Source of the DNA: Bacillus sp. ISL-45
GTDB taxonomy: Bacteria; Bacillota; Bacilli; Bacillales; Cytobacillaceae
Assembly (NCBI RefSeq): GCF_018613195.1
Contig: NZ_JAGGQQ010000009.1
Coordinates: 248,001 to 312,000 of the forward strand
Direction: 5' to 3'
DNA length: 64,000 nt
A model generated the notes under the pieces. The model ran no database searches. It was not told the DNA's origin and saw nothing but the letters and a program-made list of their open reading frames with translations. This document shows positions 3,116-55,585 of the stretch, in pieces. The position numbers and the translations under genes are program-made. The first letter of the stretch is position 1; every line of letters starts with the position of its first letter.

Positions 3116-3176
3116 TATTGGCGAAGTTCACAGGTTTATTGGCGAACTGGAAATTACCCTCGTTTTTTTCCAGTTG
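3116..3176 (+). repeat. Short member of the TATTGGCG 20-21 nt array family
   Basis: Two TATTGGCG units 21 nt apart (3116 and 3137). The second runs into GAACTGGAAATT...TTTTTTTCCAGTT, a hairpin shared with the arrays ending at 12671, 46839 and 54016. It is the smallest member of the family. Confidence 0.75.
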
Positions 3177-12513: not shown

Positions 12514-12752
12514 TATAGGGGAATTTCCTTTTTTATAGAGAGAATATCCTTTTTATAGCGACTTTCTAATTTATATAGCGGGAATTTGATTTTTATAGCG
12601 ACTTTCTCGTTTTTATAGCGACTTTTAAATTTTTATAGCGAAATGGAAATTTCACTGGATTTTTTCCAGTTCAATTGCTGGATTCAAATACGCGGGCTGC
12701 TGACTTATTGGCGAACTGGAGATTGCGCTTGGTCTTTGCCAGTTCGCCGCCA
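12514..12752 (+). repeat. TATAG 20-nt array with two terminal hairpins
   Basis: TATAG recurs at 12514, 12534, 12554, 12574, 12594, 12614 and 12634: seven units at exactly 20 nt, most reading TATAGCGA. The last runs into TGGAAATTTC...TTTTTTCCAGTT. After a short gap a TATTGGCG unit at 12706 opens a strong hairpin, GGCGAACTGG/CCAGTTCGCC. No coding potential. With the terminator it fills the 408 nt gap between lytS and the DUF4097 gene. Confidence 0.85.
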
Positions 12753-15515: not shown

Positions 15516-15580
15516 ACTTTTTCACTTTACATATATAAGAGTTAAGGCTAGGATAAAGATAATTGAATATTCGATGTACT

Positions 15581-15676
15581 ACTAGGGGTGCCCTGCTTGC
15601 GGGCTGAGAGAAAGACGCTGAGTCTTTTAACCCTTCGGACCTGATCTGGGTAATACCAGCGTAGGAAAGTGGTGTG
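15581..15676 (+). promoter_or_regulatory. TPP riboswitch (THI element)
   Basis: Carries the conserved core: GGGGTGCCC, GGGCTGAGA, a variable P3 arm, ACCCTTCGGACCTGATCTGG and GTAATACCAGCGTAGGAAAG. Binding of thiamine pyrophosphate should favour the terminator just downstream and shut off the thi operon. Confidence 0.95.
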
Positions 15677-15701
15677 AGAGAATTTTTCTTACTTTGCTTT
15701 T

Positions 15702-46700: not shown

Positions 46701-46840
46701 TATTGGCGAAAATTTGATTTTATTGGCGGTTTTCACAAGTTTATTGGCGAAAATCTGATTTTATTGGCGATGTTCACATGTTTATTGGCGAAAATAAAAA
46801 AATATTGGCGAACTGGAAATTTCCGGCGGTTTTTTCCAGC
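46701..46840 (+). repeat. TATTGGCG 20/21-nt array with terminal hairpin
   Basis: TATTGGCG at 46701, 46721, 46742, 46762, 46783 and 46803 (spacing 20, 21, 20, 21, 20). Inter-unit text alternates between GAAAATYTGATTTT and a TTCACA-GTTT type, a 41 nt higher-order repeat. The last unit continues as GAACTGGAAATTTCC...TTTTTTCCAGC, the hairpin shared with other arrays. Confidence 0.88.
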
Positions 46841-46906
46841 AAAGGTTTCAACCAATTTTAGATAAGGTAGGGAATTATAACCCATCCAAAAAAGAGGTGC
46901 TTTCAA

Positions 46907-52544: not shown

Positions 52545-52656
52545 TCTCTTATCAAGAGTGGCAGAGGGACTGGCCCTGTGACGCCCAGCAACCGTTCCAG
52601 ATGGAATTGGTGCTAAATCCTGCAAAACAATTTTTTGTTTTGAAAGATAAGAGAGG
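52545..52656 (+). promoter_or_regulatory. SAM-I (S-box) riboswitch
   Basis: P1 is TCTCTTATC (52545) with GATAAGAGA (52646). Conserved core: CAAGAGTGGCAGAGGGACTG, GGCCCTGTGACGCCCAGCAA, CC, then GGTGCTAAATCCTGC and GAAAGATAAG. The 3' side of P1, AAGAGAGG (52649-52656), is the exact complement of CCTCTCTT (52688-52695) in the terminator, so antiterminator and P1 compete as in known S-boxes: SAM turns the operon off. Confidence 0.95.
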
Positions 52657-52755: not shown

Positions 52756-53853
52756 ATGAAAAAAGGAATTAAAAAAGTATTTTTAGGTGCAGTTGCTTCT
52801 GCTTTGCTGCTGACAGGCTGCGGCGGCGGAGAGACGAAGACGGCCAGCGGACCTGTAGAAGGTGTTCCTGATCGATTTGCCAAAGGGGAGGAAGTCAAAA
52901 TCAAAGTCATCCGCAAGATTGGCGGAGATGACCATACAGCGCAATTTTTAGCCGGAGCGAAAGCAGAAGGGGAAGCGCTCGGCTTCAAGGTAGATGTCTT
53001 CACAGCGAATGGAGATACAGCCAAATTCCATGATGCAATCAACCAGGGGCTGCAGCAGGATTATGATGGATTCATCATTTCCCATGGAGATGACGCAGCT
53101 ACTGTAGATGATGTGAAAAAATTAGTTGAAAAAGGCAAAAGCGTCGTAACTTTCGATTCAAATCCGGATTTGGCTCAGGTAGAGGGAGTCACACTTACAT
53201 CCCAGGATGATGAGGCTCTCGCCACGCAGGCACTAGACCAGCTTGTGAAGGACCAAAATGGAGAAGCGAATATCGTTTACCTCTGGGTTGATGGCTTCCC
53301 GCCAATGGTCAGAAGAAATAAAGTTTACCAGGAAACCTTGAAGGCAAACCCAGGAATTAAAGAGGTTGAGAGATTCGGAGTGGCCGCTGCTGATACAAGT
53401 GTCCAAACGCAGAATGCTGTGGCCGCGATGCTCAATAAGCATCCAAAAGGAGAAATCGACGCAATTTTCGCGACGTGGGACGCTTTTGCGATCGGCGCAG
53501 CACGTGCCATTAAGGAAGCTGGCCGCGATGAAATCAAGATCTACGGAATTGATGTTTCCAATGCTGATCTGCAGGAAATTCAGGGAGAAGGCAGCCCATG
53601 GAAATATACAGCAGCTGTCGATCCGAAGCTGATCGGGGAAGTGAATATGAGATTGCTGGCGAAGAAGCTGGCTGGCGAGGAAACACCAGCAACCTATGAC
53701 CTTGAAGCATCACTGATTTCACAGGAACAGCTGCAGCAGTCAAAAAATCCGGTGAACATGGTCAATCTTGCTGAAATCATCGAAGGCTGGGGCGAATCAG
53801 ACGCATTTTTGGAAGATTGGATGGAGAAATTGAAGGATCACTATAAGAAATAA
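52756..53853 (+). CDS. Sugar-type ABC transporter substrate-binding lipoprotein under SAM control
   Basis: 365 residues. Lipoprotein signal with lipobox LLTGCGG (Cys about 22), then a periplasmic-binding-protein type I fold (VIRKIGGDDHTAQFLAGAKA, GFIISHGDDAATVDDVKKLV, TFDSNPDL, AIFATWDAFAIGAARAIKEA, YGIDVSNADLQ), as in ribose/LsrB-like proteins. The S-box upstream ties uptake to methionine/SAM shortage, so a sulfur-containing ribose derivative such as 5-methylthioribose, or another SAM by-product, is a better guess than ribose. RBS AAGGGGGAG. First gene of a three-gene importer. Confidence 0.9.
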   Translation: MKKGIKKVFLGAVASALLLTGCGGGETKTASGPVEGVPDRFAKGEEVKIKVIRKIGGDDHTAQFLAGAKAEGEALGFKVDVFTANGDTAKFHDAINQGLQQDYDGFIISHGDDAATVDDVKKLVEKGKSVVTFDSNPDLAQVEGVTLTSQDDEALATQALDQLVKDQNGEANIVYLWVDGFPPMVRRNKVYQETLKANPGIKEVERFGVAAADTSVQTQNAVAAMLNKHPKGEIDAIFATWDAFAIGAARAIKEAGRDEIKIYGIDVSNADLQEIQGEGSPWKYTAAVDPKLIGEVNMRLLAKKLAGEETPATYDLEASLISQEQLQQSKNPVNMVNLAEIIEGWGESDAFLEDWMEKLKDHYKK

Positions 53854-53879: not shown

Positions 53880-54018
53880 TATAGCGAAAAAATTGGTTTT
53901 ATAGCGACTTTTCCCATTTTATAGCGACTTTCCCAATTATATAGCGACTTTTCCGATTTTATAGCGGAAATCTCATTTTTATAGCGAATTGGAAATTTCA
54001 CGCGATTTTTTCCAGTTC
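53880..54018 (+). repeat. TATAGCGA 20-nt array with terminal hairpin
   Basis: TATAG at 53880, 53900, 53920, 53940, 53960 and 53980: six units at exactly 20 nt. The last leads into GAATTGGAAATTTC...TTTTTTCCAGTT, the same hairpin as the arrays at 12514 and 46701. It lies inside the importer operon, between the binding-protein and ATPase genes. Confidence 0.9.
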
Positions 54019-54029
54019 AGCGAACAAAG

Positions 54030-54064
54030 CAGACACTCTCAAAAAAAAGAGTGTCTGTTTTACA
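54030..54064 (+). terminator. Intra-operon terminator
   Basis: CAGACACTCT pairs with AGAGTGTCTG, followed by TTTTAC, 25 nt before the ATPase gene. Partial termination would leave the binding protein in excess over the ATPase and permease. Confidence 0.8.
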
Positions 54065-54088: not shown

Positions 54089-55585
54089 ATGAAACTTCAA
54101 ATGAACAACATCAGTATTGATTTTCCGGGGGTGCGTGCGCTGAACGATGTTAATTTCAGCACGGAAACTGGCAGCATCCATGCGTTGATTGGCGCGAACG
54201 GCGCGGGTAAATCGACATTGATGAAGGTGCTTTCCGGTGCCCACAATCATTACACAGGGGAAATCCTGCTAGGTGGCGAGAGTGTGGAAATCAGAACGCC
54301 GGCTCATGCGCAGAAACTCGGGATTCAGACGGTCTACCAGGAGGTTGATACTGCCATCATCCCGTCGCTGACTGTTGGAGAAAATATCATGCTCAATCAC
54401 ACGGTGCAGGCAATGGAAAACAAGCACTGGGTGAATTGGAAGCAGCTTTTCAAACAAGCAGAGGATATTCTATCAGGCATGAACCTTCAGATTCCTGTGA
54501 AAAAGCTTGCCGGTGAGCTGACGCTTGCGGAGAAACAGCTGGTCCTGATTGCGCGTGCGATTTCAAGTGATTGCTCCTTCTTGATCCTTGATGAACCAAC
54601 CGCTCCGCTCAGCCACACCGAAACATCGGAATTGTTCCGGATTGTCAGGAACCTGGCTAAAAGGAATGTGGGCATCATCTTCATCTCCCATCGAATGCCC
54701 GAGATCTTTGAGTTGTGTGATGAGCTGACCATTATGCGAAATGGCGAGCTGGTTGTGAAAAAAGGTATTCCTGAAGTCGACACTCACAAGGTGATTGAAT
54801 ACATGCTTGGGCGGAAGCTGGAAGACCAATTCCCCGCAAGGGTCAGCACGTTTGGAGATACCCTGCTGGAAGTCGAAGGTATAACTGATGAGGACAAGGT
54901 GAAAAATACTTCCCTCCATGTTAAAGCAGGGGAGATTGTCGGGCTGGCCGGCCTCGTAGGAGCGGGAAAGACAGAGCTGTGCAAAGTGCTGTTTGGCGCG
55001 GCACCGATAAAGAGCGGAACTGTAAAGCTAAAAGGAAAAACCCTAAAGCTTACGAGTCCTCATGCTGCTGTAAAAAGCGGGTTGGCACTGGTGCCTGAAG
55101 AGCGGCGCAAGGAAGGTGTCCTTGTCGCAGAATCCGTTGCCTCCAACCTGACAGCGGTCAACTTAAAAAAGTTCTCCCGAATCTTTAGTTTTATCGACAG
55201 GCGGGCTGAAAAGAAAACGGCTCAGGAATACATAAAGGCTCTAGGCATCAAAACTGCATCGGAAAATGCCAAAGTTGAAAATCTCTCAGGCGGGAACCAG
55301 CAGAAGGTAGCGATTGGCAGGTGGCTGATTGCCGATGCGGATGTGTATATCTTTGATGAGCCAACCAAGGGTGTTGATGTAGGTGCGAAGCGGGATATTT
55401 TTGAATTGATTGCCCAGCTTGCAGCTCAAGGGAAGGGTGTCATTTATGCATCCTCCGAGCTGTCAGAAATCGTCGGCATCACGAATCGGGTTTACGTGCT
55501 CTATGACGGTGAACCAGTCAAGGAGCTTGAAACAGCCGCAACAACAGAAGAGGAACTTTTATTTTATTCAACAGGAGGAAGATAG
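54089..55585 (+). CDS. Sugar ABC transporter ATP-binding protein (RbsA/LsrA type)
   Basis: 498 residues with two fused nucleotide-binding domains. First: GANGAGKSTLMK, signature LTLAEKQLVLIARA, Walker B FLILDEPTAPL. Second: GLAGLVGAGKTELCK, signature LSGGNQQKVAIGRW, Walker B VYIFDEPTKGVD. As usual in this family the first domain's signature and second domain's Walker A deviate somewhat. Powers import by the permease downstream. RBS GGGAGGAGG. Starts 2 nt before the permease ATG after its own stop. Confidence 0.93.
   Translation: MKLQMNNISIDFPGVRALNDVNFSTETGSIHALIGANGAGKSTLMKVLSGAHNHYTGEILLGGESVEIRTPAHAQKLGIQTVYQEVDTAIIPSLTVGENIMLNHTVQAMENKHWVNWKQLFKQAEDILSGMNLQIPVKKLAGELTLAEKQLVLIARAISSDCSFLILDEPTAPLSHTETSELFRIVRNLAKRNVGIIFISHRMPEIFELCDELTIMRNGELVVKKGIPEVDTHKVIEYMLGRKLEDQFPARVSTFGDTLLEVEGITDEDKVKNTSLHVKAGEIVGLAGLVGAGKTELCKVLFGAAPIKSGTVKLKGKTLKLTSPHAAVKSGLALVPEERRKEGVLVAESVASNLTAVNLKKFSRIFSFIDRRAEKKTAQEYIKALGIKTASENAKVENLSGGNQQKVAIGRWLIADADVYIFDEPTKGVDVGAKRDIFELIAQLAAQGKGVIYASSELSEIVGITNRVYVLYDGEPVKELETAATTEEELLFYSTGGR

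Follow-up and report, generated by a model that had tools for sequence, protein, structure and literature searches.

The 64,000-nt stretch of Bacillus sp. ISL-45 analyzed here (the window) contains, starting at position 53880, an array of six short boxes that follow each other at exactly 20 nt and end in an inverted-repeat cap; the array is confirmed as real and is one copy of a family much larger than the one described in the initial annotation of this DNA. The arrays share their architecture and spacing, lie between genes, are concentrated in the origin half of the chromosome, occupy conserved sites, and come in several dialects, each with its own box word; at one locus, the dialect is linked to the type of an adjacent protein with a NERD domain. 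We see about an even chance that the arrays are DNA binding platforms for their cognate NERD protein, serving the organization or maintenance of the origin half.

In the array at 53880, five boxes are TATAGCGA and one is TATAGCGG, and the array continues into GAATTGGAAATTTCACGCGATTTTTTCCAGTT. The six TATAG boxes at exactly 20 nt, as well as the seven at 12514, had been noticed initially and are indeed present in the sequence; the former span 53880-53984 and the latter 12514-12638. At 12514, the first two boxes are degenerate (TATAGGGG, TATAGAGA), and the end module is nearly identical to that of 53880. The initial inventory of the window was correct for both these dialect-1 arrays, but overlooked a dialect-2 array (46702-46841, module included) and a remnant (3117-3175).

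The family was characterized on 127 Mesobacillus arrays and then on a larger set of 246 arrays from 15 genome sets. In the smaller set, 505 of 561 steps between boxes are 20 nt long. The larger one consists of dialect 1 (176 arrays, word TATAGCGA), dialect 2 (67 arrays, word TATTGGCGA), and dialect 3 (three arrays, ATTCCGCGA-like), the dialect counts per genome being biased, since the loci of named genomes were retrieved by the dialect-1 pattern. Dialect 1 has 710 of 765 steps at 20 nt, and dialect 2 has, among 297 steps, 184 at 20 nt and 104 at 21 nt. Exactly six boxes are found in 107 of the 246 arrays, and five in 62. In the 213 arrays that were anchored by the module, the box is perfect in 89, 92, 79, 66, and 46% of units -1 to -5 counted from the module, and in 7% of units -6.

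The module common to the arrays is a 38-nt inverted repeat TATAGCGAAYTGGAAATT-N8-TTTTTTCCAGTT. The "hairpin" proposed for this place is a conserved inverted repeat; its two variable pairs do not covary in the 218 of 246 modules that were placed for this count (pair 10-36, Fisher p 0.33; pair 14-32, p 0.62). Unit columns 10-11 are occupied exclusively by A or T, in approximately equal parts, which is compatible with A-tracts in the DNA duplex, but does not prove them. The spacers between boxes have an identity of 0.635 in orthologous arrays, 0.558 at different sites of different genomes, and 0.592 at different sites of the same genome; they are barely more alike at orthologous sites, and therefore the boxes are kept while the spacers drift. 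Little sign of array copying between sites of one genome is seen, as 0.5% of 1392 such pairs exceed 85% identity. These data bear out the initial claims that position is kept better than unit sequence and that the step is about two turns of DNA; free variation of the spacing, which had been set in advance as a refuting test, is not observed in either set.

The ISL-45 genome (4.6 Mb, 27 contigs) has Mesobacillus as its named relatives. BLAST with the 211-bp array region yields 25 matches in this genome, and matches in 19 of 20 relatives from the same genus and in none of 20 genomes outside it. A sequence-only profile (R1), built from 83 sequences of the two final units plus the module, matches 21 of 21 members of the genus and, weakly, 7 of 172 other members of the family. 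A pattern scan of a species-genome collection gave at least 107 stretches, titled Mesobacillus or Bacillus sp. ISL strains, with two doubtful titles. In the records titled Chryseobacterium sp. ISL-80 (L070 and other JAGGQZ contigs) and Cytobacillus oceanisediminis 2691 strain DE0166 (L068 and further VEEP contigs), Mesobacillus arrays occupy sites known from Mesobacillus, so that both titles look wrong.

The chained boxes are almost exclusively intergenic. In 1.354 Mb of ISL-45 sequence (81.5% coding, part of it retrieved because it bears arrays), chained occurrences of TATAGCGA (steps of 19-22 nt) number 57 between genes and none inside open reading frames (ORFs) of at least 100 aa, and those of ATTGGCGA number 41 between genes and three inside ORFs; none of five control 8-mers is ever chained there, so that the chaining is not due to chance. 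A de novo scan of the same sequence for any 6-mer present at least four times at 20-22 nt found 29 places, 21 of them in the array family (13 TATAGCG, 8 TATTGGCG). According to a simple ORF caller, 12 of the 246 arrays lie within an ORF of at least 80 aa, and none of the 127 in the first set.

The genes surrounding 226 arrays, taken in the orientation of the array, are arranged as -- in 99 cases, +- in 60, ++ in 47, and -+ in 20, to be compared with 130, 77, 139, and 102 background gaps of 150-700 nt, respectively. Location inside an operon, as initially suggested, fits the site 53880, where both flanking ORFs (52756-53853 and 54089-55585) are on the + strand, but only the 47 ++ arrays lie between two genes of their own orientation. 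The 60 arrays flanked by convergent genes, a place where one would not look for a promoter, disfavor an operator regulon. Among 238 arrays with a known downstream neighbor, 171 have the module turned toward the 3' end of a gene, at a median distance of 47 nt from the stop codon, and 67 arrays, including the window site, face the other way. By a home-made rule, a terminator-like hairpin separates the module from the facing stop codon in 131 of the 171 cases (72/99, 50/60, and 9/12), compared to 2 of 88 base-shuffled control segments; between the upstream stop codon and the array, such hairpins are present in 32/60 (+-) and 18/47 (++) cases. The enrichment between genes and near 3' ends that the initial annotation proposed to check is thus seen, and chained boxes are not equally common in genes, the other outcome that it had named as refuting.

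Almost all arrays (243/246) use one word throughout. All 20 low-scoring profile matches that were read proved to be arrays built of TATTGGCGA-type boxes and ending in a module of this kind. Clustering by flanks (one matching flank at 58% identity or more) yields 53 sites, 36 of which are present in at least two genome sets; 12 of these 36 carry both dialects across species, and in at least two of the 12 (clusters 3 and 10) both dialects occur at the site within some genome sets. The site 53880 itself has dialect 1 in ISL-45 and dialect 2 in G018, with identity of 0.77-0.93 in most flanking bins and 0.52 over the array, while the comparison with G019, which has dialect 1 here, retains 0.80-0.93 over the array. 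The lone dialect-2 module next to the dialect-1 array of 12514 is probably a relic that dialect 2 left at this site.

Other ladders were observed in this group of genomes. Two ladders at separate sites, with as many as seven TTTACGGT-type boxes in steps of 20-22 nt (L396:4313-4449 and L411:17340-17471), are another word family in the ISL-45 genome, and short ladders with the same steps are formed by GAGCGATATA (L418:10688-10781), CAGTTGA (L062:1109-1199), GCGAAT (L402:7875-7942), and CAATTA (L378:4809-4877). The Mesobacillus relative G007 has only three weak profile matches; at L234, a module is preceded by degenerate TTCCGCGA/AAAATCCC-like boxes, either a loss of the array or another dialect.

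The arrays are strongly biased toward the replication origin. In six complete genomes with dnaA located in each, and among the matches listed, 103 of 115 stronger (at least 42 bits) and 60 of 68 weaker array matches lie in the origin half, compared to 47 of 116 T-box leaders used as the control; the Kolmogorov-Smirnov test against a uniform distribution gives p 9e-17. For these counts, matches within 300 nt per strand were merged, second matches within one array were dropped, and genome sizes are rounded values. Because sites are common to several genomes, pooling counts them more than once and the totals are not independent, but the bias is visible in single genomes too, where 2-4 of 27-34 array matches fall in the terminus half. 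Again among the matches listed, 35 of 115 arrays are oriented with the leading strand, versus 98 of 116 T-boxes.

The genes adjoining arrays in ISL-45, G276, and G499 (L273) encode one protein family, with a NERD domain, a four-cysteine zinc-ribbon-like stretch, and a modelled C-terminal winged helix. Against a curated cut-off of 22.1 bits for Pfam NERD (PF08378), the G276 and L084 proteins score 63.6 and 72.1. E49, D82, and K97 are invariant, and position 95 is Asp or Glu, in all 12 NERD proteins that were aligned; we take these four to be the catalytic residues of a nuclease-like core. The structural model (pLDDT 88.5) contains a helix-helix-helix-strand-strand unit at the C-terminus, after the four-cysteine stretch. 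Its matches to known structures are weak, the best having E 1.5e-3 and none reaching 0.001. Among them are nucleases such as Bax1, R2, Can2, and Hjc, with winged helices scoring lower; a sequence search for solved relatives found the zinc-ribbon stretch alone, at E 0.12 or worse. The ISL-45 protein is unmatched at 1e-10 among 72,556 plasmid records, and the 50,697 phage records contain a single weak match to it (24% identity over 52%); a mobile element of plasmids or phages was accordingly rejected. A defence gene was rejected as well, the matches to PglW, MkoA, and MAD6 being weak, partial, and under curated cut-offs where these are given. Two distant NERD-like proteins of ISL-45 (about 86 bits; L401:1905-2819 and L425:13916-14869) have longer-period repeats nearby.

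At 11 loci, with six words and in four genera, the NERD gene is divergent from the ladder, the first GCGA being 77-108 nt from its start (ISL-45, ISL-41, G010, G008, G018, G019, G011 twice, G499, G131, and G276). Moreover, each of two further NERD paralogs of ISL-45 (L397 and L405), found in stretches from array-bearing contigs that were not picked for these places, has a 21-nt ladder of an unrelated word beside it: at L405, five TATCTCCGGTT-like boxes in divergent position, 105 nt from the NERD start, and at L397, six GTGCAAT-like boxes 55 nt past the stop codon and five about 0.7 kb upstream.

At the syntenic locus, the NERD tree separates ISL-45, ISL-41, and G010, all with dialect 1 (support 100/100), from G008, G018, G019, and G011, all with dialect 2 (98/98), whereas the tree of the neighbor gene across the array groups ISL-45, ISL-41, G018, and G019 against G010, G008, and G011 (98/96). 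When ISL-41 and G019 are compared in 150-nt bins, their DNA identity is 0.89-0.95 ahead of the array and drops to 0.58 across most of the array; it is 0.61-0.69 across the NERD gene and 0.43 at the end of that gene, and returns to 0.88-0.97 beyond. For ISL-45 and ISL-41, which have the same dialect, it is 0.83 over the array and 0.86-0.93 over the NERD gene, the two differing just behind NERD (0.41 and 0.57). Both the tree split and the identity profile therefore show that the word and the protein type move together at this locus. This co-change at one place suggests an undescribed protein-DNA addressing system.

According to the explanation that we favor, the array would act at the DNA level, as a binding platform, and not as an RNA element. 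About six copies of the word, 20-21 bp apart, would be presented on nearly the same helical face, with an inverted-repeat cap that opens with a further copy of it. The direct repeats may be bound cooperatively by a sequence-specific protein, which would also bind the terminal inverted repeat; the most probable binder is the array-linked NERD/zinc-ribbon/winged-helix protein of about 320 aa, whose gene adjoins an array. About thirty platforms per genome, placed in pockets next to terminators and mainly in the origin half, could contribute to the organization or maintenance of that half.

Several observations weigh against this explanation. A structural role does not need intact nuclease-like residues. 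A genome with both dialects would be expected to have two NERDs of these kinds, but the two dialects coexist in ISL-45, G018, G008, and G019, with one dialect-1/2 NERD found in each (search over 1.35 of 4.6 Mb in ISL-45, and over array loci in the other three); two dialect-type NERDs, for dialects 2 and 3, are found in G011 only, and the other two strong NERD paralogs in the scanned part of ISL-45 go with other words. Live and relic dialects are not told apart by box quality, which for dialects 1 and 2 is 0.73 and 0.54 in ISL-45, and 0.91 and 0.92 in G019. Fixed differences between the NERD types occur throughout the protein except in the last 40 columns, which include most of the winged helix, and hence the word-reading part is not located. 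Nine of the 11 NERD-array loci were retrieved because they bear arrays, a choice that makes such pairs likelier to turn up; G131 was retrieved on a weak profile match. The L397 arrays are not in the divergent place, and the L397 and L405 words were not found dispersed in the 1.35 Mb of ISL-45 scanned. Finally, arrays at different sites of the same genome are slightly more alike than those of different genomes (0.592 versus 0.558), as copying or local drift would give.

The last point, as well as the nuclease-like residues, leads to the main rival, which we consider rather unlikely: a selfish, homing-like family, in which NERD would be a site-specific nuclease spreading or converting arrays, the places behind terminators would be preferred landing sites, and the dialects would be competing lineages overwriting each other. 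It agrees with the weak nuclease fold matches, with the exchange of NERD and array as a cassette, with the purity of arrays in dialect although sites differ in dialect, and with the lone dialect-2 module adjoining a dialect-1 array. It is harder to reconcile with the 36 sites common to at least two genome sets, the retention of boxes while spacers decay, the rarity of near-copies within a genome, and the plasmid and phage search results, and spread alone hardly explains the preference for six boxes.

The position of the arrays could also point to a transcription roadblock or insulator, that is, a protein-coated array halting read-through RNA polymerase just past a terminator. The short distance between module and stop codon, the terminator-like hairpins in between, and the predominant orientation of the module toward gene 3' ends are what one would expect of it, but more than a quarter of the arrays (67/238) face the other way, and neither the origin bias nor the dialect coupling is predicted; we regard it as improbable. 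Least probable is an RNA element, either the structured 3' UTR (untranslated region) of the initial annotation or a small RNA with repeated protein sites. The module does fold better than shuffled sequences (mean z -2.4 and -1.8), and at ++ and +- sites (107/226) the array could be read as the 3' end of an upstream transcript, a terminator-like hairpin preceding it in less than half of the former and little more than half of the latter. The array RNA, however, is less prone to folding than dinucleotide shuffles, whichever strand is taken (mean z +0.98 and +0.89; 100 arrays), the two variable module pairs lack covariation, A-runs and T-runs interchange at the same unit columns, and the arrays have either orientation to transcription; together with the terminator hairpins between module and stop codon, this speaks against the 3' UTR.

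Some other genera of this order have ladders that resemble the Mesobacillus arrays. Sets of four GCGA in steps of 20-21 nt were matched in 127 of 397 genomes and 47 of 135 genera; both are upper figures, since the control breaks down for AGCGA-ending words, and chance, coding sequence, or plain tandem repeats account for part of the matches. Among 24 inspected GCGA loci, six lie inside an ORF of the simple caller, and L275 and L276 look like chance matches. The sequences from 24 genomes are better evidence, as many of them have their own word before GCGA, e.g. TCCGGCGA and TTAAGCGA in G276, TATCAGCGA or TAACGGCGA in genus g52, and TTGAGCGA in G305, and some arrays outside Mesobacillus close with an inverted repeat whose first part is the word (GGCGAACGCT..AGCGTTCGCC in G469). 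Contig 17 of G276 (L294-L296) has 16 ladders in 59 kb, in two dialects, several of them six-box and often paired, around NERD and other genes; the same stretch also has one chance match in a gene. Contig 1 of G028 contains CGCGCGA-word ladders (e.g. L297, L298), and long runs of near-identical 21-nt TTTGGTGCGA units elsewhere are perhaps plain tandem repeats. A tentative extension, to which we give less than even weight, is an order-wide, undescribed address system, where each NERD paralog would own a word and recognize it only in a capped ladder of about six copies spaced by two turns of DNA, and tens of origin-half addresses would be rewritten as a set upon exchange of the protein.

Several known systems share some of these features. 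Plasmid-origin iterons consist of several direct repeats of about 20-22 bp and an inverted repeat with the same core, use family-specific words, and have the gene of the cognate DNA-binding protein nearby. The arrays likewise combine direct repeats within the 17-22 bp range with a same-core inverted repeat, but are present in about thirty dispersed chromosomal copies, and the gene beside the NERD-linked arrays is NERD and not a replication initiator (Rep), Rep families not having been searched for in the other flanks. The RacA/ram and Noc/NBS systems of B. subtilis use single palindromic sites on the chromosome, which favor the origin side or avoid the terminus, and we know of no dialects in them; the arrays share the chromosomal bias, but are six-box ladders with dialects. 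DNA uptake sequences do have dialects, with lineage-specific words often near gene ends, but these are single sites, while the array words are chained and the chained boxes are almost never in genes. ParR/parC plasmid centromeres have 20-bp direct repeats, a period similar to that of the arrays, which differ in their many chromosomal sites and nuclease-related protein; no partition genes were noticed beside the arrays, in flanks viewed without a family search over all of them. In ParR/parC, as described in PMC9426499, protein-site specificity decides compatibility. The TAACTGA repeats of Beggiatoaceae, according to PMC4679880, form many intergenic sets of unknown function; their word is common to the lineages, and in the main genome of that study most sets immediately precede start codons. 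The arrays resemble them in a short word repeated between genes, and differ from what is described there in being 20-21 nt ladders near 3' ends with many words. A CRISPR array (repeats of about 21-48 nt, unique spacers) was rejected, the shared word here being 8-9 nt and the spacers AT-rich and of low complexity; Cas genes were not searched for. As the initial annotation knew of no name for the family, so none was found in the open-licence literature on such repeats, NERD, and ParR, nor any description of six-box arrays, some of the searches being narrow.

If correct, the binding-platform explanation would mean that the chromosome carries a code whose words are interchangeable and which has a candidate reader, with two dialects in single genomes and with natural cassettes that swap reader and word between conserved flanks. 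The origin bias bears on the question of how relatives of Bacillus mark the origin half of their chromosome. According to PMC9040797, its authors knew of no study of NERD domain function in bacteria before their work of 2022, and therefore a DNA target would give the domain a function.

Table. Array-family features and the adjacent terminator-like hairpin in the window.
Feature	Coordinates	Strand	Basis
Dialect-1 array, six TATAGCGA-type boxes exactly 20 nt apart	53880..53987	+	sequence
38-nt terminal inverted-repeat module, last box + AATTGGAAATT...TTTTTTCCAGTT	53980..54017	+	
Terminator-like hairpin CAGACACTCT..AGAGTGTCTG with T-run, shortly past the module	54030..54062	+	
Dialect-1 array, seven TATAG boxes at 20 nt	12514..12641	+	
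Terminal module of the second dialect-1 array	12634..12671	+	
Lone dialect-2 module TTATTGGCGAACTGG...CCAGTTCGCC, adjoining the dialect-1 array of 12514	12705..12748	+	
Dialect-2 array, six ATTGGCG boxes at 20-21 nt	46702..46811	+	
Terminal module of the dialect-2 array	46804..46841	+	
Dialect-2 remnant, two boxes and terminal module	3117..3175	+	

The hairpin following the array of 53880 has a similar counterpart after the array at the orthologous site of G018 (L221), which is of the other dialect. The described Rfam families found in the window at the gathering score are a SAM riboswitch (52546-52653) and a TPP riboswitch (15574-15684) only, the array being unmatched. The SAM riboswitch is located upstream of the ORF 52756-53853 that precedes the array; by its look, this ORF may encode the substrate-binding lipoprotein of an ABC transporter, and its control by SAM suggests a methionine-salvage substrate.
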